Of a stretch of DNA of 64,000 nt, positions 17,145-44,061 are shown one piece after another. The notes beneath the pieces were generated by a model that saw only the letters and a program-made list of their open reading frames with translations, was not told the origin of the DNA and ran no database searches. Position 1 is the first letter of the stretch. Every line of letters starts with the position of its first letter. The translations under genes and the position numbers were made by a program. The stretch is taken from assembly GCA_002897635.1 (NCBI GenBank), contig BDTD01000025.1, forward strand, positions 62,001-126,000, in the 5' to 3' direction. The DNA is from a bacterium BMS3Abin11 (GTDB lineage Bacteria > Pseudomonadota > Gammaproteobacteria > BMS3Bbin11).

Positions 17145-18435
17145 ATTATTCAAAATAAAACGGGTTCAAGCCCGCCAGATCCTCGACTCCCGGGGCAATC
17201 CGACCGTGGAGGTGGAATGCCGGCTTTCAGGCGGCGCGCACAGCCGGGCATCCGTACCCTCCGGTGCCTCCACTGGTAGCCGCGAAGCGGTCGAACTACG
17301 GGATGGTGATGCCCAACGATTTGGCGGCAAGGGGGTGTTGAAGGCGGTAGCCAACGTCAACGATAACATTGCACCGATCCTGTTGGATCAGGACGCCCGC
17401 CAGCAGGCGGTCATCGACCAGGCCATGATCACGCTGGACGGCACCCCCAACAAGGCCCGGCTCGGTGCCAATGCCATGCTCGGTGTGTCACTGGCCGTGG
17501 CCCGTGCTGCCGCCAGCGCGTGCAGCCTGCCTCTCTACCAGTATCTGGGGGGGCCGGGGGCTACCCGTCTGCCGGTACCACACATGAACATCCTCAATGG
17601 CGGCGTCCACGCCCATTGGCAGGGAGCGGACTTCCAGGAGTTCATGATCGCCCCTTTCGGAGCCGACAGCTTCCACCAGGCCCTGGAGTGGGGTAGCGAG
17701 ATCTACCATGCCTTGCAGGCGCAGCTGGAAAAGCGCGGACTCTCGGTCGGTGTGGGTGACGAAGGCGGTTTCGCGCCCCATGTCCGTTCCAACGAAGAAC
17801 CCTTTGAACTGATTGTCGAAGCAATTGGCCAGGTGGGACTGCGCCCGGGACAGGATGTCGGCATCGCCTGTGATCCCGCCTCCAGTGAATTCTTTGATGA
17901 CGCGCACTACCACCTGCGAACAGAAGACCGCCGTCTCGATTCGACCGAGATGGCCGCTTACTACCAGCAACTGGCAGACAAGTACCCGCTGGTGCTGCTG
18001 GAAGACGGTATGGCCGAGGATGACTGGACAGGCTGGCAGACTCTCAACCAGGCTTTGGGCGATCGGATCGAGCTGGTAGGAGACGACATCTTCTGCACCA
18101 ACCCGGCCATCATCGCCCGTGGCATTGAGCAGGATATCGCTAATGCGGTATTGATCAAGTTGAACCAGATCGGTACCCTGACCGAGACCATCGCTGCCAC
18201 CCGCCTGGCCCGCGATCACGGCTGGGGGGCTTTCGTCTCCCATCGATCAGGCGAAACCGTCGACAGCTTCATCGCCGATCTGACAGTGGCGCTGGATACC
18301 GGGCACCTGAAAACAGGCGCACCAGCACGGGGTGAACGGGTGGAAAAATATAATCAGCTGCTGCGCATCGAAGAACACCTGGGCGATGCGGCGCGCTATG
18401 CGGGGGTCGACGCCTACTGCCGAAAACTGCGGTGA
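17137..18435 (+). CDS. eno: Enolase (divergent copy)
   Basis: This 432-residue cytosolic enzyme interconverts 2-phosphoglycerate and PEP. Visible family features are ARQILDSRGNPTVEVE, the catalytic VGDEGGFAP, LLEDGMAEDDW, the GDDIFCTNP metal region and VSHRSGETVDSFIADL. The start at 17137 gives the usual enolase length; a TTG at 17086 would add 17 non-family residues. It differs from housekeeping enolases around GGVHAHWQGADFQEFMI, where most have an GGxHAxNNxDxQEFM pattern. It is therefore probably an accessory or acquired copy. A broken relative is at 32766-32945. Confidence 0.93.
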   Translation: MDELFKIKRVQARQILDSRGNPTVEVECRLSGGAHSRASVPSGASTGSREAVELRDGDAQRFGGKGVLKAVANVNDNIAPILLDQDARQQAVIDQAMITLDGTPNKARLGANAMLGVSLAVARAAASACSLPLYQYLGGPGATRLPVPHMNILNGGVHAHWQGADFQEFMIAPFGADSFHQALEWGSEIYHALQAQLEKRGLSVGVGDEGGFAPHVRSNEEPFELIVEAIGQVGLRPGQDVGIACDPASSEFFDDAHYHLRTEDRRLDSTEMAAYYQQLADKYPLVLLEDGMAEDDWTGWQTLNQALGDRIELVGDDIFCTNPAIIARGIEQDIANAVLIKLNQIGTLTETIAATRLARDHGWGAFVSHRSGETVDSFIADLTVALDTGHLKTGAPARGERVEKYNQLLRIEEHLGDAARYAGVDAYCRKLR

Positions 18436-18510
18436 TGACCAGACGTAGCCTGTTGATGCACACATTCCGGCCGATGCACCCCTGATACTCTGACACAAGG
18501 CGGATTTATA

Positions 18511-35957: not shown

Positions 35958-36701
35958 CTACTCATGTGACAAAAAGACTTCCGCCTGCTCTTTCAGCGCC
36001 TCCAGTTTCGATACGGCCAAGTAGTTGGAATGACTGTTCAGCACTCCTTTGCCGCGGAACACCTGCAGATGTTTGTTGACCACTTGCCGGGTCGAACCAA
36101 TCATGCGTGCAAGAGAATCCTGATTCAGGTCATGGATCAGTCTGACGTCGTGAGATGCGTTTGCAGCAGAACGATCAGGCAGGGTGTGGCGCAGGATCAA
36201 CCTGGCCAGTCGGGTTACAGTATCTTTCATGGCCAGATCAGCAGCCAGATCCTCCATCCTGCGCATTTGCGCGCCCAGGTAAGGTAAAAAATTACGATTG
36301 AATTCAGGATGACAGCTTATCCACTCACGCACGAGCCGACTGGGGGCACTCAGCAAATACAAATCATCCAGGGCCGTTGTCATAGACTCGTGCGATTGAT
36401 CATCCAACAGGTTGATGATATCGAAACCATCCCCAGGGCCCAGCAGAAAAAGAATAATCCGATCACCCGATGCAACATCAATACGTTCCACCTTGACGCG
36501 CCCATTAATAATCAGGTAAAAACGCTGCAATAATGAAGGTGCATCTACTTCGACACCCTTACGCCACGTAATGTGAAGGAACCGTTCAAGCATGTAACTC
36601 AGGATTTCATCAGACAGGCCGCTGAACAGGGGCGATAGCGCAAGTTTGCTTTTGCAATGCAAGTAAAGAGGAGAACCTGTATTCATAGAGTTTCTGTCCA
36701 A
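35958..36701 (-). CDS. Crp/Fnr-family transcriptional regulator
   Basis: A 247-residue regulator. The N-terminal cyclic-nucleotide-type beta-barrel has no CRP-like phosphate cassette or Fnr cysteine cluster that I can see. A long dimer helix (FNRNFLPYLGAQMRRMEDL) and a C-terminal winged helix follow (DLNQDSLARMIGSTRQVVNKHLQVFRGKGVL). The recognition helix has TRQVVNK, not the E..SR of Fnr. It is encoded 38 bp behind the cytochrome c gene on the same strand, so it likely belongs to that operon and may control the divergent redox genes. Confidence 0.88.
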   Translation of the reverse strand: MDRNSMNTGSPLYLHCKSKLALSPLFSGLSDEILSYMLERFLHITWRKGVEVDAPSLLQRFYLIINGRVKVERIDVASGDRIILFLLGPGDGFDIINLLDDQSHESMTTALDDLYLLSAPSRLVREWISCHPEFNRNFLPYLGAQMRRMEDLAADLAMKDTVTRLARLILRHTLPDRSAANASHDVRLIHDLNQDSLARMIGSTRQVVNKHLQVFRGKGVLNSHSNYLAVSKLEALKEQAEVFLSHE

Positions 36702-36739: not shown

Positions 36740-37975
36740 TTAATGAATATCAGATTTTTTATCAGAACCAAGTTTGATCATATAATCTACCGCTGCTTCC
36801 ACCCGCGCATCAGAGCAGATATCGCAACCGCCCTTGGGGGGCATGGGGCCATCGCCTTTGATGGCAACCTGGTAAAGGTGATCGCGCCCCTGATCACGCA
36901 GGATCTGGCGAACCCGGCGCTTATACACTTCGGGTGCACCTATAATTCCGGTCTCATGACAGGCGCCGCAGTTACTCTCGTAAAGTTTTCGACCGGCTTC
37001 CTTATTCAATGGTGTTTGCACCCCTTCCACCGGAGGCGACAGGCTCTTTACTGATTTCAGATAATCAGCAATGGCGAGCATGTCTGCGTGGCGCAGATAC
37101 CTCAGACTGTTATGCTCAACGTCGCTCATGGGACCCAGCAACTTTCCTCCTGTGGGTTTAATATCATGCATGAATATTTTTGCAACCGTGCCGGGCGACA
37201 GGCTTCGGAGTCCTTGTGCATTAATGCTTGGCGCGAAATAGTCTTCAACAAAGGCCCCCGCCAGGTAATACTTTGTTTTTGGAGTTCCCAGTATATTCAG
37301 CTTGGTATGACACAGGGCACAGTGACCCGGGCCTTCGACGATGAATGCTCCCCGGTTCCAGCTCTCAGACTTTTTTGGGTCGGGGATGTACTGTCCTTTA
37401 TTAAAATCAAAATACAGCAAGCGCCAGCCGAATTGCAGCCAGCGGTAGTTGAACGGCCATTCCATTTGCGACGGTTTGTTGATGTGTTTTTCGGCAGGAA
37501 TGCGGTCCAGATAGGCCTTGATCGCCAGCACATCCTCGCGACTCATACGATTAAAATAATTATAGGGGAAAACGGGATAATAATAGCTGCCATCCGGGCG
37601 GATACCCTCTCTCACGGCAGTGACAAAGTCCTCCTTACTCCAGTTACCAATGCCTGTGTCTTTATCCGGTGTGATATTCGGGACAAACAATGCACCAAAA
37701 GGTGTGTCGATACGCAAACCACCGGCGAAGGGAGTGCCCCCATTCCCGATATCCGTGTGGCAGGCCATGCAATCGCCCAGCTTCACCAGGTATTCGCCGC
37801 GTGCAATCTGCGCCTTATCGGCACCCGCTTCAATATGAGCTGAAGGATATTCCGGGTAGTGCAAGGATATGTTGTTTGCGATTGTGTCCGCGGATAATTC
37901 CAGGGGCAACAACACGACAATAAACAACGCCAGCAACCGTACCCACCATTTATTATTTCGCTTTTTATTTCTCAA
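36740..37975 (-). CDS. Triheme c-type cytochrome (dehydrogenase cytochrome-subunit type)
   Basis: A 411-residue exported protein. The signal peptide or anchor is WWVRLLALFIVVLLPLELSA. It has three CxxCH heme sites: CMACH (69-73), CALCH (about 219) and CGACH (about 336). The first domain (GTPFAGGLRIDTPFGALFVP, NITPDKDTGIGNWSKEDFVTA) is the pattern of cytochrome subunits of membrane alcohol or gluconate dehydrogenases. No flavin or quinoprotein partner is nearby. The regulator follows in the same operon. It faces the cytochrome-porin gene across a 196-bp shared control region. Confidence 0.9.
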   Translation of the reverse strand: MRNKKRNNKWWVRLLALFIVVLLPLELSADTIANNISLHYPEYPSAHIEAGADKAQIARGEYLVKLGDCMACHTDIGNGGTPFAGGLRIDTPFGALFVPNITPDKDTGIGNWSKEDFVTAVREGIRPDGSYYYPVFPYNYFNRMSREDVLAIKAYLDRIPAEKHINKPSQMEWPFNYRWLQFGWRLLYFDFNKGQYIPDPKKSESWNRGAFIVEGPGHCALCHTKLNILGTPKTKYYLAGAFVEDYFAPSINAQGLRSLSPGTVAKIFMHDIKPTGGKLLGPMSDVEHNSLRYLRHADMLAIADYLKSVKSLSPPVEGVQTPLNKEAGRKLYESNCGACHETGIIGAPEVYKRRVRQILRDQGRDHLYQVAIKGDGPMPPKGGCDICSDARVEAAVDYMIKLGSDKKSDIH

Positions 37976-38010
37976 TTAATGACACCTCTAAAAAACAACG
38001 GCTCTTCGCA

Positions 38011-38032
38011 GGTTTTGTTTCGGTTTTGTTTC
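38011..38032. repeat. 11-bp tandem repeat in the shared control region
   Basis: GGTTTTGTTTC occurs twice head-to-tail, one helical turn apart, 36 bp upstream of the cytochrome c start. It could be an operator or chance. Confidence 0.6.
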
Positions 38033-38076
38033 GGTCAAACTTATGGTTGAGTCATACAGATGACAGAACGAAAAGT

Positions 38077-38090
38077 TTGACCTCGATCAA
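38077..38090. promoter_or_regulatory. FNR/ANR-type box
   Basis: TTGACCTCGATCAA matches TTGAT-N4-ATCAA at nine of ten half-site positions. It lies between the divergent cytochrome c gene (102 bp away) and cytochrome-porin gene (82 bp away). An Fnr-type protein, or the local Crp-family regulator, could bind. Confidence 0.65.
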
Positions 38091-38094
38091 GGTA

Positions 38095-38123
38095 TTGACC
38101 CTGAAAATATTTTAGCATACATT
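38095..38123 (+). promoter_or_regulatory. Putative sigma-70 promoter of the cytochrome-porin gene
   Basis: TTGACC and TACATT are separated by 17 bp, about 50 bp ahead of the predicted start. The FNR-type box ends 4 bp before the -35 element, a position compatible with activation. Confidence 0.45.
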
Positions 38124-38171
38124 TACTTTGTCAGTTTGCGGTTGGTTCTGACAAACTGACATGACAGCCGG

Positions 38172-39560
38172 ATGCGCCATTGTTCTGCTGTGACCGGCAT
38201 CTTATCGCTATACAGTAGCCCCAGCGCCCAACCAGCGGGGACACAAACCACAGCTATACTTGCACTGGCTCTTTACCTGACGACCACAGCTGCGCTGGCA
38301 GTACCCAGTTTTGCGCGTCAGACCGGTATGGCATGCGGCGCATGCCATACGATATATCCGAAGCTGACCGCATTTGGACGTGATTTCAAGCTCAGCGGCT
38401 ATACCATGGCGAATACGAAGCAGATCGAGGGAACCGGAACCGATAAGCACCTGAAAATCAACGAGATCCCACCGCTTTCAGCGATGCTACAGGTCGGATT
38501 TACCCACCTGAACAAAGAGATTCCGGATCAGCAAAACAACAACGTGGAGTTCCCGCAGGCGCTGAGCCTCTACTATGCCGGAGAAATCAGTCCGCACATG
38601 GGTACCTTCCTGCAGGTTACCTACAGCCAGCCGGATGATAACTTCAGTTTCGACATGGCAGACATCCGCTACGCCAAACGCACAACGCTCGGCAGCCGCG
38701 ACATGCTCTATGGCGTGACCCTTAACAATGCGCCAGGTATGGAGGATGCGTGGAATACCACGCCGGCGTGGACGTTTCCTTATACGGCCTCCGATACAGC
38801 TCCTGGTCCCGCCGCAAGTCCTCTCGTCAATAATTTCATGAATGTTGCAGGTCTCGGTGGCTACGCCCTGTGGGATGACCACTGGTACGGTGCGGTGACC
38901 TTTTACCGCAGCGCCCCGTTGGGACAGGGCGCGCCATCCTCTGCCGGGTCGGTAAGCAACGTTGCACCTTACGCACGCTTCGCCTGGCAGGGATATTTTT
39001 CGAACCGGGCCTACCTGGAGATTGGCACTTACGCTTTATACGCCGATTTCTTGCAGGGTATGATGGCTGCTGGCACAGCGGGGCAGTACGATAAATACAC
39101 CGACCTGGCCCTGGATGCAACCTACCAGCTTCCGTTGAATAACAACCGTCTGCTTTCCATGCATGCCATCTACATCCACGAAAATCAGACACTCGATTCG
39201 AGCTTCGCAGCGGGTTTGTCAAGCAACCGTAACAATACCCTCGAACAGTTCCGCGCCGATGCTAACTACGAGTTCGGTCACGATGGCCAGATCACGCTGG
39301 GGTACTTCAAAACCTGGGGAGACAGCGATCCGATCCTGTATAGAGACAGCACCGAAGCGGTAAACAACAGTGCCAGCGGTAGCCCCAACAGCGCCGCCTT
39401 CCTCGCCGAGGTCGATTATCTGCCATGGGAGAACACCAAGTTCTCACTCCAGTACACGGCCTACACCAGGTTCAACGGCGGTAACAAAAACTATAACGGA
39501 GCAGGGCGTAACGCGTCGGATAACAACACACTGTACCTGAACAGCTGGTTCATGTGGTAG
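38172..39560 (+). CDS. Cytochrome-porin: monoheme c domain fused to an outer-membrane barrel
   Basis: A 462-residue exported protein. After a signal sequence (TTAILALALYLTTTAALA) comes one heme motif, CGACH (55-59), within ARQTGMACGACHTIYPKLTAFGRDFKLSGYT. About 400 residues of alternating amphipathic strands follow, with Tyr/Trp/Phe girdle residues (LSLYYAGEISPHMGTFLQVTY, FSLQYTAYTRFNGG), ending in the aromatic WFMW expected of outer-membrane barrels. This is the architecture of Cyc2-type fused cytochrome-porins, some of which oxidise extracellular iron. Substrate here is unknown. The ATG at 38172 lacks a good ribosome site, and the true start may be slightly downstream. A BamE-like gene follows after 5 bp. 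Confidence 0.82.
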   Translation: MRHCSAVTGILSLYSSPSAQPAGTQTTAILALALYLTTTAALAVPSFARQTGMACGACHTIYPKLTAFGRDFKLSGYTMANTKQIEGTGTDKHLKINEIPPLSAMLQVGFTHLNKEIPDQQNNNVEFPQALSLYYAGEISPHMGTFLQVTYSQPDDNFSFDMADIRYAKRTTLGSRDMLYGVTLNNAPGMEDAWNTTPAWTFPYTASDTAPGPAASPLVNNFMNVAGLGGYALWDDHWYGAVTFYRSAPLGQGAPSSAGSVSNVAPYARFAWQGYFSNRAYLEIGTYALYADFLQGMMAAGTAGQYDKYTDLALDATYQLPLNNNRLLSMHAIYIHENQTLDSSFAAGLSSNRNNTLEQFRADANYEFGHDGQITLGYFKTWGDSDPILYRDSTEAVNNSASGSPNSAAFLAEVDYLPWENTKFSLQYTAYTRFNGGNKNYNGAGRNASDNNTLYLNSWFMW

Positions 39561-39565
39561 GGAGC

Positions 39566-40045
39566 ATGTCTTGCCGCTGGGTCACGTGGTTGATGTTTGT
39601 GCCATTCGTGGCACTCGCGGACAAACCGCCAACTGATGTTGATGCACGGTTCGCTATCATCCAGGAGCAGCTCGATGCACTGAATAAACGCCTTGAGCAA
39701 CTGGAGCAGATGCCTCAGTCGCCCTTGCCACCACCAGGTGCAGCTACCGATACGACAGTTACCGATGTAGTTGACAGCCACCCACCCACAGTGCCTCCCC
39801 GCGTACAACCTGAACTGGCAGCCTACCAGGGAGTCGAGGCGCTGCGCACAAACTGGAAGCAGTTACAACGCGGCTTATCGCGTACTGAACTACGCCACCT
39901 TCTCGGCAAACCACGTTCGGAACTCACATTGGATCAACAAACACTGTGGTATTACCGCTATCCCGGTATCGGCGGTGGCTCGGTAATGCTGGATAGCAAG
40001 GGTAAAGTAACAGGCTGGCAGGAACCGCCGTTTCGTGGCTGGTAA
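39566..40045 (+). CDS. Exported coiled-coil protein with a BamE/SmpA-like domain
   Basis: About 159 residues from the ATG at 39566. A short signal sequence (VTWLMFVPFVALA, no lipobox Cys at the cleavage site) is followed by a coiled coil (RFAIIQEQLDALNKRLEQLEQM) and a Pro-rich linker. The C-terminal domain (WKQLQRGLSRTELRHLLGKP, WYYRYPGIGGGSVMLDSKGKV) has the G-x-xxxExxxLLGKP..-WYY pattern of BamE/OmlA-type proteins. It begins 5 bp after the cytochrome-porin stop, which suggests a role in assembling or stabilising that barrel. Confidence 0.75.
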   Translation: MSCRWVTWLMFVPFVALADKPPTDVDARFAIIQEQLDALNKRLEQLEQMPQSPLPPPGAATDTTVTDVVDSHPPTVPPRVQPELAAYQGVEALRTNWKQLQRGLSRTELRHLLGKPRSELTLDQQTLWYYRYPGIGGGSVMLDSKGKVTGWQEPPFRGW

Positions 40046-40061
40046 ATGATGCCGTGCGACA

Positions 40062-40901
40062 TCAGCCATAACGGCCTGTGATGTAATCCTCTGTCTGTTT
40101 CTTGCCTGGATTGGTGAACAAGGTATTCGTATCCGAATGCTCGATTAACTCGCCCAGATACATAAGGGCCGTATAGTCGGAAACCCGCGCCGCCTGTTGC
40201 ATGTTGTGCGTCACAATAACAATAGTATAGTCATCCTTTAGCTCACTGATCAGCTCTTCTATCTTGAGTGTGGAGATGGGATCCAGCTCCGAAGCGGGTT
40301 CATCGAATAAAAGAACCTCCGGTTTTACAGCAATTCCGCGAGCAATACACAGACGCTGCTGCTGACCGCCTGACAGCTGCGTGCCAATCTGGTGCAACTT
40401 ATCCTTGACCTCATCCCACAATGCCGCCTTTTTCAGCGCCCATTCAACGCGATCATCCAGATCAACGCGCGATAACCGTTCATAGAGCCTCAAACCAAAG
40501 GCGATATTGTTATACACTGACATCGGAAATGGGGTCGGCTTCTGAAACACCATTCCCACTTTTGCGCGCAGAGAATTCAGATCCTGATCCTTGCAGAGAA
40601 TATTGTTGCCATCCAGCATTACACGTCCACTGGGTCGCTGATCCGGATAAAGTTCATAGATACGGTTGAAAACCCGTAGCAAGGTGGATTTACCACATCC
40701 GGAAGGACCGATAAAGGCAGTAACCTTTCTCTCGGGAATGTCCATGCTGATACCATGCAAAGCCTGAAATTCCCCATAATAAAAATCCAGCGATTCAACT
40801 TGTAATTTGGGAGATTGAAAATTTATGACAGTGGCAGTATGCGCACTGTTATCCTGGTTAATTGTCATCGCATTTTCCACGAAAGTTGCGTCATTAAACA
40901 T
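40062..40901 (-). CDS. pstB: Phosphate ABC transporter ATPase PstB
   Basis: A 279-residue cytoplasmic ATPase of the high-affinity phosphate importer. Walker [13 protein letters not shown]-loop [11 protein letters not shown], signature [16 protein letters not shown], Walker [16 protein letters not shown] and the H-switch VTHNMQQA are all present. The D-loop has ASELDPI where many PstB proteins have TSALDPI. An internal ATG (MTINQDN) 12 codons in may be the real start. It is the last gene of pstSCAB; no phoU follows. It is convergent with the BamE-like gene, 16 bp apart. Confidence 0.97.
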
Positions 40902-40918
40902 ATCGATACTCTCTCTAT

Positions 40919-41785
40919 TTATGATGATGGGTGCCCTGATTTTTTAGTTCGTAAAAACAAACGGGCAAGAATATTCAAGCAGAGAATACTGAACGTAATC
41001 AGCAGTGCCCCCGCCCAGGCGAGATGTTGCCAATCGTCATACGGACTCATTGCAAACTGGAAAATCACAACCGGCAAGTTTGCAATCGGCTGGTTCAGGG
41101 ATAAACTCCAGAACTGGTTGTTCAGTGCGGTGAACAGCAACGGTGCCGTTTCTCCAGATATGCGCGCCACCGCCAACATGACGCCGGTCATGATGCCGGT
41201 TTTGGCAGCACGGTAGACAATGTGAGTCATAATCTTCCATTGAGGTGCTCCCAGGGCGGCAGCAGCCTCACGTAGTGAGTTCGGAACCATGCGCAACATA
41301 TCTTCCGTCGTGCGCACCACTACGGGTATTACGATCAGCGCCAGTGCAGCCGTCCCTGCCCAGCCTGAGAAATGTCCCATACTCACCACCATGACCTCAT
41401 AAATGAAAATACCGATAATGATAGACGGAGCACTGAGGAGAATGTCATTGACAAAACGTATCATCGACGCAAGAAACGAGGTGTGGCCGAATTCGTTGAG
41501 ATAGGTTCCGGCCAGAACACCGATGGGTGTACCAATCGCCATACCCATAACCGTCATGAGTAAACTGCCGACTATCGCGTTTGACAGCCCCCCTGCACTG
41601 CCTGGTGGAGGAGTAATCTGCGTGAAAACATCCATGCTGATCCACTGTAAACCATTGCTCAGCAGCGTCCACAACAACCAGATCAGCCAGAACAGACCAA
41701 ACACGGTCATCAGGATCGACACGGTGAGGTTAAAATAGTTGATAAAGAGACGTCGTCGATAGAGATTCATTACCTCAAACCTCAA
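40919..41785 (-). CDS. pstA: Phosphate ABC transporter permease PstA
   Basis: A 288-residue inner-membrane permease with six helices. The EAA loop is [22 protein letters not shown], and other PstA features are [15 protein letters not shown] and [19 protein letters not shown]. Its start overlaps the pstC stop by four bases. It forms the channel with PstC. Confidence 0.97.
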
Positions 41786-42783
41786 CTATGCTTGCCTTCA
41801 CGAGCTGTCAGATGCATCAACATAAGCCTGGCGAGCGCCAGGATGATGAAAGTGATAACAAACAGAATCAAACCCAGGGCAATCAATGAAGAACTGTAAA
41901 TTTTTTCCACGGCCTCAGTGAACTCATTGGCCAGTGTCGAGGAGATGGTACTGCCCGGCATAAACAGTGAGGCATTGATTTTATGGGCATTGCCTATCAC
42001 AAAGGTAACCGCCATGGTTTCGCCCAGAGCCCGCCCCAAACCCAGCATGATGCCACCGACTACACCGACTCTCGTATACGGCAAGACAATGTGCCACACC
42101 ACTTCCCAGGTAGTCGCACCCAATGCATAGGCCGACTCCTTGAGCGCCGCAGGTACAACTTCAAATACATCACGCATGATCGAAGCAATAAAGGGCAATA
42201 TCATAATGGCGAGAATCAGGCCGGCTGTAAACATGCCGATACCCATCGGTGGTCCCTGGAATAACAGTCCCACGACCGGCCAGTTACCGAGATGGCCACT
42301 GATCCAGGGTTGGATATGGTCAGCAAACAAGGGTACGAAAATGAACAAGCCCCACATACCATAGATGATACTGGGGATAGCTGCCAACAACTCAATCGCG
42401 ACCCCGACCGGGTGCTTGAGCCAGGCTGGCGCCAACTGAGTAATGAACAGCGCAATGCCAAAGCTCACCGGGATAGCAATTAACAGGGCGATAGCTGACG
42501 TTACCAGGGTGCCAAAAATCGCGACCAGCGCACCGAACTGTTGGGTAACCGGATTCCATTGCGAACTGGTCAGAAAACCGAAACCGAATTTCTGGAAGGC
42601 GGGCCAGGCGCCGATCATTAAAGATACGACAATTGCCACAACTATCATGAAAACTAACAGGGCCGAAAACAGTGTTGAGCCCCGAAATAAGGTATCGAGC
42701 CACCTGTCCCTGTGCAGGCTCGAAGCGGCAGTGACAGTGTGGCTGCTGGAAACTGATGTGTTTAAACTGGCCTCCCCTCTCAC
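41782..42783 (-). CDS. pstC: Phosphate ABC transporter permease PstC
   Basis: A 333-residue inner-membrane permease. It has the PstC patterns [37 protein letters not shown], the EAA loop [22 protein letters not shown] and [18 protein letters not shown]. It starts with a GTG overlapping the pstS stop (GTGA), so translation is coupled to pstS. Confidence 0.97.
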
Positions 42784-43850
42784 TGCGCCACGCTGGCACT
42801 CAGAATGGGTTCACCGGTTTCAGACTTGATTTCTTTCGCCCAGGTGCGCTCAACCAGGCTCACGACATCGGACGGAATCGGCACATAATCGAGCTTCTCG
42901 GCCATCTTCTGCCCGTGGTGGTAGGCCCAATCGAAGAATTTGAGTACCGCCGCAGCCGTCTTGGGCTTGGTCTGGGTCTTGTAGACCAGGATGAAAGAGG
43001 CGCCGGTTATCGGCCAGCTATTGGCACCCGGCTGGTCGGTCAAGACCATGTAGAAGCCGGGTGCGTGCTTCCAGTCAGCATTCGCCGCTGCGGTCTGAAA
43101 ATTCTTGCTGATGGGCGAAACAAAATTACCGTCCCGGTTACGCAGTTGAGCATAGGACATCTTGTTCTGAAGCGCATAAGCATATTCAACATAGCCGATT
43201 GAGTTCTTGATACGGCGTACATAGGAGGCGACACCTTCATTACCCTTACCACCCACCCCCACAGGCCAGGCTACGGCTTTGTTGTTACCGACCTTCTCCG
43301 CCCATTCCTTGCTGACCTTGCTCAGATAGTTGGTGAAAATCCAGGTGGTGCCGGAACCGTCAGAGCGGTGTACAACAGTGATGCCGCTATCAGGTAAATG
43401 TACACCCGGGTTGTTTGCCTTAAGACGGGCATCATTCCACTTATTGATTTTGCCCAGGAAAATATCAGCCATTTGTTCGGAAGTCAGCTTGAGCTCACCC
43501 GGCTTAACACCCGGGACGTTCACGACTGGCACAACACCCCCCATGATCATAGGGAATTGTATCAAACCGGACTTATTCAGATCCTGCAACTTGAGGGGCG
43601 CATCGGAGGCACCGAAATCCACGGTCCTGGCCTTGATCTGCTTGATGCCACCGCCAGAGCCGATGGACTGATAGTTCATTTTTACACCCGTCTCTTTGGC
43701 ATAGGCTTCTGCCCACTTGGCATAAACAGGGTATGGGAAGGTTGCACCGGCACCCGAGATAATGCCCTCGGCACTGGCCTGGCCGTTCAACAGGCCGACA
43801 GACAGCAAGGCTACTCCGATGAAGATATTTTTTGTGAGGCGTTTTGGCAT
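42780..43850 (-). CDS. pstS: Periplasmic phosphate-binding protein PstS
   Basis: A 356-residue exported binding protein from the ATG at 43850, which has GGAG 6 bases upstream; longer frames reach 43997. The signal peptide is [20 protein letters not shown]. Phosphate contacts can be seen in [34 protein letters not shown] and [18 protein letters not shown]. It is the first gene of the pst operon, with a double Pho box about 230 bp upstream. Confidence 0.97.
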
Positions 43851-44061
43851 TTTGTGCTCCATACAGACTGGGAAAATAAGTTTAATTAGTGAAGGCCTGA
43901 AACCCGTCACTGCTTTGATAAATCCAGGTGGTCTATGCGTTTTGTGTGGGTTGAAAACAACGGTATTTCCAGGTAGTGGCGGAAGGAATACCACCACAGT
44001 CTTCAGCTTCAGGATCCATCATAGACCTGATCTATGAGCTGGTTTCCATAGACCAGTGCTA

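Follow-up and report, generated by a model that had tools for sequence, protein, structure and literature searches.

In the MtrAB, MtoAB, and PioAB systems, the decaheme cytochrome is a protein of its own, which sits inside a barrel of 26 strands. BamE (SmpA/OmlA), for its part, is a lipoprotein of the Bam complex. Cyc2 proteins are built in another way, as fused cytochrome-porins in which a 16-stranded outer-membrane barrel is joined to a cytochrome domain; they are described in Acidithiobacillus ferrooxidans, in Mariprofundus ferrooxydans PV-1, and as Cyt572 in Leptospirillum (PMC8406198, PMC7029218). The minimum length used for them is 365 aa, and their CxxCH heme site is preceded by a motif stated as unique to Cyc2, AXPXFAR[Q/K][T/Y], and followed by PxL (PMC8406198). 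The family serves as outer-membrane 'wires' that draw electrons from extracellular iron; verified Cyc2 proteins oxidize Fe(II), and the Cyc2 homolog of 'Candidatus Tenderia electrophaga' responds to cathode potential. The literature grades the function of distant members, outside the known iron oxidizers, as uncertain. The present work concerns a member of this family found in a 64,000-nucleotide stretch of DNA from bacterium BMS3Abin11, hereafter the window. Through its linkage to a BamE-like gene and its exchanged periplasmic cytochrome, the locus seems to be an undescribed variant of Cyc2.

The cyc2-family gene occupies 38172..39560 on the + strand, with an ambiguous start at either ATG 38172 or GTG 38190. 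Its 462-aa product, longer than the Cyc2 minimum, carries a signal peptide ending at about residue 43, an N-terminal monoheme c-type domain, and a predicted outer-membrane barrel ending in W. The ORF listing confirms what the initial annotation had reported: four genes at the places claimed, one CxxCH at residues 55-59, and a WFMW end (in full, NSWFMW). C55 and C58 are the sole cysteines beyond the signal peptide. The heme region reads AVPSFARQT-GMA-CGACH-TIY-PKL and thus contains the Cyc2-only motif, with PxL four residues downstream of the single CxxCH. In an alignment of 30 homologs, the full length is covered and the heme site and motif region are kept; some homologs differ at one or two positions from the motif in its strict form. 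No family matching the cytochrome-porin was found in Pfam or NCBIfam, and a PDB profile search with the 30 homologs gave no relevant match. Because of the motif, the signal peptide, the one heme, the aromatic end, and the full-length relatives, the protein is, on sequence criteria, a Cyc2-family cytochrome-porin and adds a member to a known family. The family-specific published motif and the full-length homologs thereby bear out the Cyc2-type identity first suggested for this gene. Elsewhere in the same genome, another, distantly related Cyc2-like gene (400 aa, AVPAFARSQG...CGGCH, G000:C37:73900-75100; L002, L067) adjoins a LysR-type regulator gene in an unrelated neighbourhood.

The outer-membrane barrel, also part of the initial annotation, is likely, with indirect support from beta-dyad periodicity and the aromatic C-terminal residue. 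Averaged over the family, the beta-dyad hydropathy signal of residues 100-462 reaches z=2.2 with 14 strand-like peaks, to be read beside z=5.3 for a true porin and z=0.1 to 0.9 for soluble controls, the latter being single sequences; taken as a single sequence, the window Cyc2 has a z of 0.9. In 26 of the 30 homologs, the sequence ends in F, W, or Y. AlphaFold, run on the cytochrome-porin with three sequences only, returned a pLDDT of 26.7 and no usable model, and alignment by hhalign of the Cyc2 profile with Porin_O_P porins was not significant.

Cyc2 homologs occur in 42/369 genomes of the class (Gammaproteobacteria), spread over many families, with full-length identities of 34-62%. Within the genus, the window copy is the sole close one: five of the six other genomes gave no match and the sixth a weak partial match (E 2e-7). 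Plasmid-borne homologs are found in Acidithiobacillus ferrooxidans, Acidiphilium, Caballeronia, Methylocystis, and others, those of the first two being 34-35% identical to the window protein. In the window, the neighbours of cyc2 are the triheme cytochrome, Crp, a YfdX protein, and pstBACS. An accessory pstSCAB copy (window 40062-43997) converges on the pair formed by cyc2 and the BamE-like gene and is only 53-57% identical to the copies of relatives; a second pst copy of the genome (G000:C12:37606-38358) matches at 54%. Of the two, the window copy is not the one similar to those of the genus. The near-absence of cyc2 in the genus and the accessory pst copy fit an accessory or laterally acquired region around cyc2.

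Elsewhere in the family, Cyc2-like genes lie directly beside RND-type efflux operons (L044 and L046 in G021 and G169, L038 in G239), an observation that hints at a possible second family role in metal handling. One alternative reading builds on such neighbours and gives the Cyc2 homolog another outer-membrane function, either metal detoxification or redox-controlled solute transport, for example of phosphate near pst. The RND-type operons of these three relatives, named from sequence appearance, and the convergent pstSCAB copy would suit it, as would the resemblance, drawn in the literature, of the modelled Cyc2 barrel to the phosphate porins OprP/OprO and the uncertain function of the family beyond known iron oxidizers. 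However, the RND and pst neighbours are not kept among relatives, the heme signature is strictly conserved across Cyc2 homologs, and it is c-type cytochromes that are enriched near cyc2. Indeed, CxxCH-containing ORFs account for 15/119 of those within 1.5 kb of genomic cyc2 genes vs. 5/171 beyond 3 kb (p=0.0016), and a c-type cytochrome is the next annotated gene after cyc2 in 3/3 plasmid records (Caballeronia, Acidithiobacillus, Methylocystis). We consider a non-respiratory role of this kind unlikely. In G314, an ORF with 57 CxxCH (L063:8873-14182) is located about 1 kb from a cyc2-like gene.

Downstream of cyc2, the BamE-like gene (39554..40045, + strand) encodes an exported protein of 163 aa with coiled-coil, proline-rich, and BamE-like parts. 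Its likely start, ATG 39566, lies 5 bp past the cyc2 stop, in agreement with the gap initially noted; the alternative GTG 39554 would overlap cyc2. The protein begins with a signal peptide and a predicted helix at 29-52, continues through a region rich in proline, and closes with a BamE-like part. Its BamE-likeness is carried by its relatives, 10/11 of which match the BamE family PF04355 (E up to 0.1, best E 1.1e-7), whereas the window protein itself (E 0.0028, 17.8 bits) falls below the Pfam gathering score of 23.2. Reading the translation by eye, no lipobox cysteine was seen at the end of the signal peptide. Its AlphaFold model is of low quality (pLDDT 46).

This gene is repeatedly linked to cyc2, at six loci that belong to distant families: those of five sampled class genomes and that of Thiogranum. 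The BamE-like gene is directly downstream of cyc2 on the same strand in the window, in Thiogranum (L003), in G007 and G055, and in G156, the cyc2 gene of this last genome being a paralog; in G133, it is found one gene downstream. Seven of the nine class genomes with the BamE-like gene also have cyc2, vs. 42/369 overall, a co-occurrence with a hypergeometric p=4.7e-6 that ignores phylogeny. In G250, two BamE-like copies and two cyc2 fragments are each found on a contig of their own, and three of these four lie at a contig end or close to one; the scattered copies may be broken repeats. All six BamE-linked copies in the Cyc2 tree belong to a single supported clade (96/88), which has 16 rows. The BamE-like labels are no more clustered on the tree than in shuffles (131/500 as low); therefore, losses or mobility must be assumed, and the tree did not show that the linkage arose once. 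A search of the accessible literature for Cyc2 together with BamE or SmpA returned no relevant pairing.

The idea that a general envelope protein unrelated to Cyc2 became its neighbour by chance draws on BamE-like relatives without a detected cyc2 beside them (G071, G201, G752, G453) and on the many cyc2 genes that have no BamE-like neighbour. Set against the repeated same-strand adjacency and the co-occurrence just described, this explanation appears improbable. Judged by its linkage, the BamE-like protein is a true partner of cyc2, and the suggestion of a dedicated factor, made initially from the window alone, is strengthened by the six loci.

The other half of the arrangement behaves differently. 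The triheme cytochrome c gene (36740..37975, - strand) is divergent from cyc2 and encodes an exported protein of 411 aa with three CxxCH in class I / cbb3-subunit-III-like domains. The Crp-family regulator gene (35958..36701, - strand, 247 aa) lies downstream of it in the same direction, and its product matches HTH_Crp_2 and cNMP_binding above cut-off. The three-heme exported cytochrome and the Crp gene facing cyc2 are thus present as initially annotated. A conserved module of cyc2, triheme, and Crp genes was nonetheless rejected, and with it the view of the four genes as one conserved unit. Neither of the two genomes with the nearest named Cyc2 homologs (L003 and L004) gave a match to the triheme cytochrome, its gene was not seen in nearly all other cyc2 neighbourhoods examined, and no counterpart of the Crp gene adjoined the other cyc2 genes examined. 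A relative of the Crp protein (40%) exists in G156, on a contig other than that of its cyc2 genes. The triheme cytochrome and the Crp regulator beside cyc2 are therefore a local arrangement.

What stands in the place of the triheme protein varies. In Thiogranum, whose Cyc2 is 78% identical, a c4-type diheme cytochrome is encoded on the opposite side, and a relative of this cytochrome is encoded in G133 between cyc2 and the BamE-like gene; in related cyc2 loci, the periplasmic cytochrome is a c4-type diheme or a monoheme. Since the window has a triheme where Thiogranum has a diheme with its relative in G133, the periplasmic partner appears exchangeable. The closest relatives found for the triheme protein have four hemes and adjoin cytochrome c oxidase genes, one locus checked by Pfam reading coxB-coxA-ctaG-coxC, and this proximity to oxidase operons suggests that the triheme protein delivers electrons to an oxidase.

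These observations also lend themselves to a reading in which the triheme and Crp genes form an independent unit that came to lie opposite cyc2 by chance, the electrons of Cyc2 going to another periplasmic cytochrome. It would account for the missing triheme gene in both nearest homologs, for the occurrence of its relatives beside oxidase operons in genomes without detected cyc2, and for the lack of co-conservation of the Crp gene. Yet a distant triheme relative is found four genes downstream of cyc2 in G116, the clear exception among the neighbourhoods, and in the window the triheme and cyc2 genes share a divergent promoter region, part of which is kept in Thiogranum, and there too the gene opposite cyc2 encodes a multiheme cytochrome. 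We regard chance placement as a serious contender, if somewhat less than an even one.

The shared part is a 56-bp element (38022..38077) common to the window and the Thiogranum cyc2 promoter, with a local alignment score of 50 vs. at most 25 among 500 dinucleotide shuffles. Partly self-complementary, it could be an operator. In the remoter loci carrying the BamE-like gene, the region upstream of cyc2 gave no convincing match to the element, and no conserved regulon emerged, the pattern having 5 matches in the genome vs. 6 for the reversed control. Just upstream of the cyc2 start, a perfect 10-bp inverted repeat, TGTCAGTTTG-13-CAAACTGACA (38129..38161), shows no obvious conservation in L003.

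Taken together, the locus is probably an electron-uptake device made of cyc2 and the BamE-like gene, which passes electrons through a periplasmic cytochrome to a cbb3 oxidase with the BamE-like protein as helper; we favour this reading with some reserve. The Cyc2 motif and family membership, the cyc2-bamE linkage, the conservation of the promoter element, and the presence of a cbb3 locus were observed directly. We infer a topology in which the N-terminal c-heme of Cyc2 would plug the periplasmic mouth of the barrel and be reduced from outside the cell, most likely by dissolved Fe(II), some other reduced metal, or a surface. Fe(II) or a comparable donor is the best guess by analogy, because of the activity of verified Cyc2 proteins and the cathode response of the Tenderia homolog. 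A periplasmic multiheme c cytochrome, in the window the divergent triheme protein, would accept the electrons and hand them on to a cbb3-type oxidase, cbb3 being the only heme-copper oxidase found in the organism's own genome. Its CcoN is split in two frames (G000:C5 about 17146-18446; L157:5003-6480), through either an assembly error or a real break. The BamE-like protein would act as a dedicated periplasmic helper that inserts the heme-loaded barrel or braces Cyc2 near the cytochrome, and both promoters may be under Crp-type control exerted at the 56-bp element.

A more specific version, which we put forward tentatively, would make this Cyc2 branch a two-part outer-membrane complex of a heme-barrel and a BamE-like subunit, the latter inserting the barrel or locking the heme to the cytochrome; if true, diheme and triheme cytochromes would be swappable behind the same gate. 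The locus thus bears on the question of which periplasmic protein takes the electron of Cyc2. As a gene that travels with cyc2 and encodes a barrel-assembly-type domain, the BamE-like gene offers a genetic handle on the maturation of Cyc2 and its insertion in the outer membrane.

Compared with described systems, the locus shares with MtrAB, MtoAB, and PioAB electron transfer through an outer-membrane barrel, but here one heme is fused to a predicted barrel within a single protein. The BamE-like protein is related to BamE through the C-terminal domain found by PF04355 in 10/11 of its relatives; it differs by its missing lipobox, its score below the Pfam cut-off, its extra coiled coil and proline-rich linker, and its linkage to cyc2. 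Unlike in a rus-type operon, the immediate neighbours in the window include no cyc1, cup, cox, or rus genes. At L003 and L039, the partner of Cyc2 is a diheme of the c4 type, as Cyc1 is, a likeness to the cyc2-cyc1 pair. The window also resembles that pair, as known from the rus operon (PMC10654088), in having Cyc2 near a periplasmic multiheme c cytochrome, but its partner is a divergent triheme from a different family, followed by a Crp gene. 'Candidatus Tenderia electrophaga' has a gammaproteobacterial Cyc2 homolog proposed for electron uptake from outside, together with highly expressed triheme cytochromes; in contrast to the window, the triheme genes lie at another place in the genome, apparently in one transcript with a TPR gene (PMC5371394). 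With the Cyc2 fused cytochrome-porins, finally, the window protein has in common the signal peptide, the N-terminal CxxCH, both motifs, a length above 365 aa, a C-terminal part predicted to be barrel-like, and the aromatic end, a likeness that is measured by the published motif rather than by alignment to verified sequences, and it is set apart by the BamE-like gene that follows its own.
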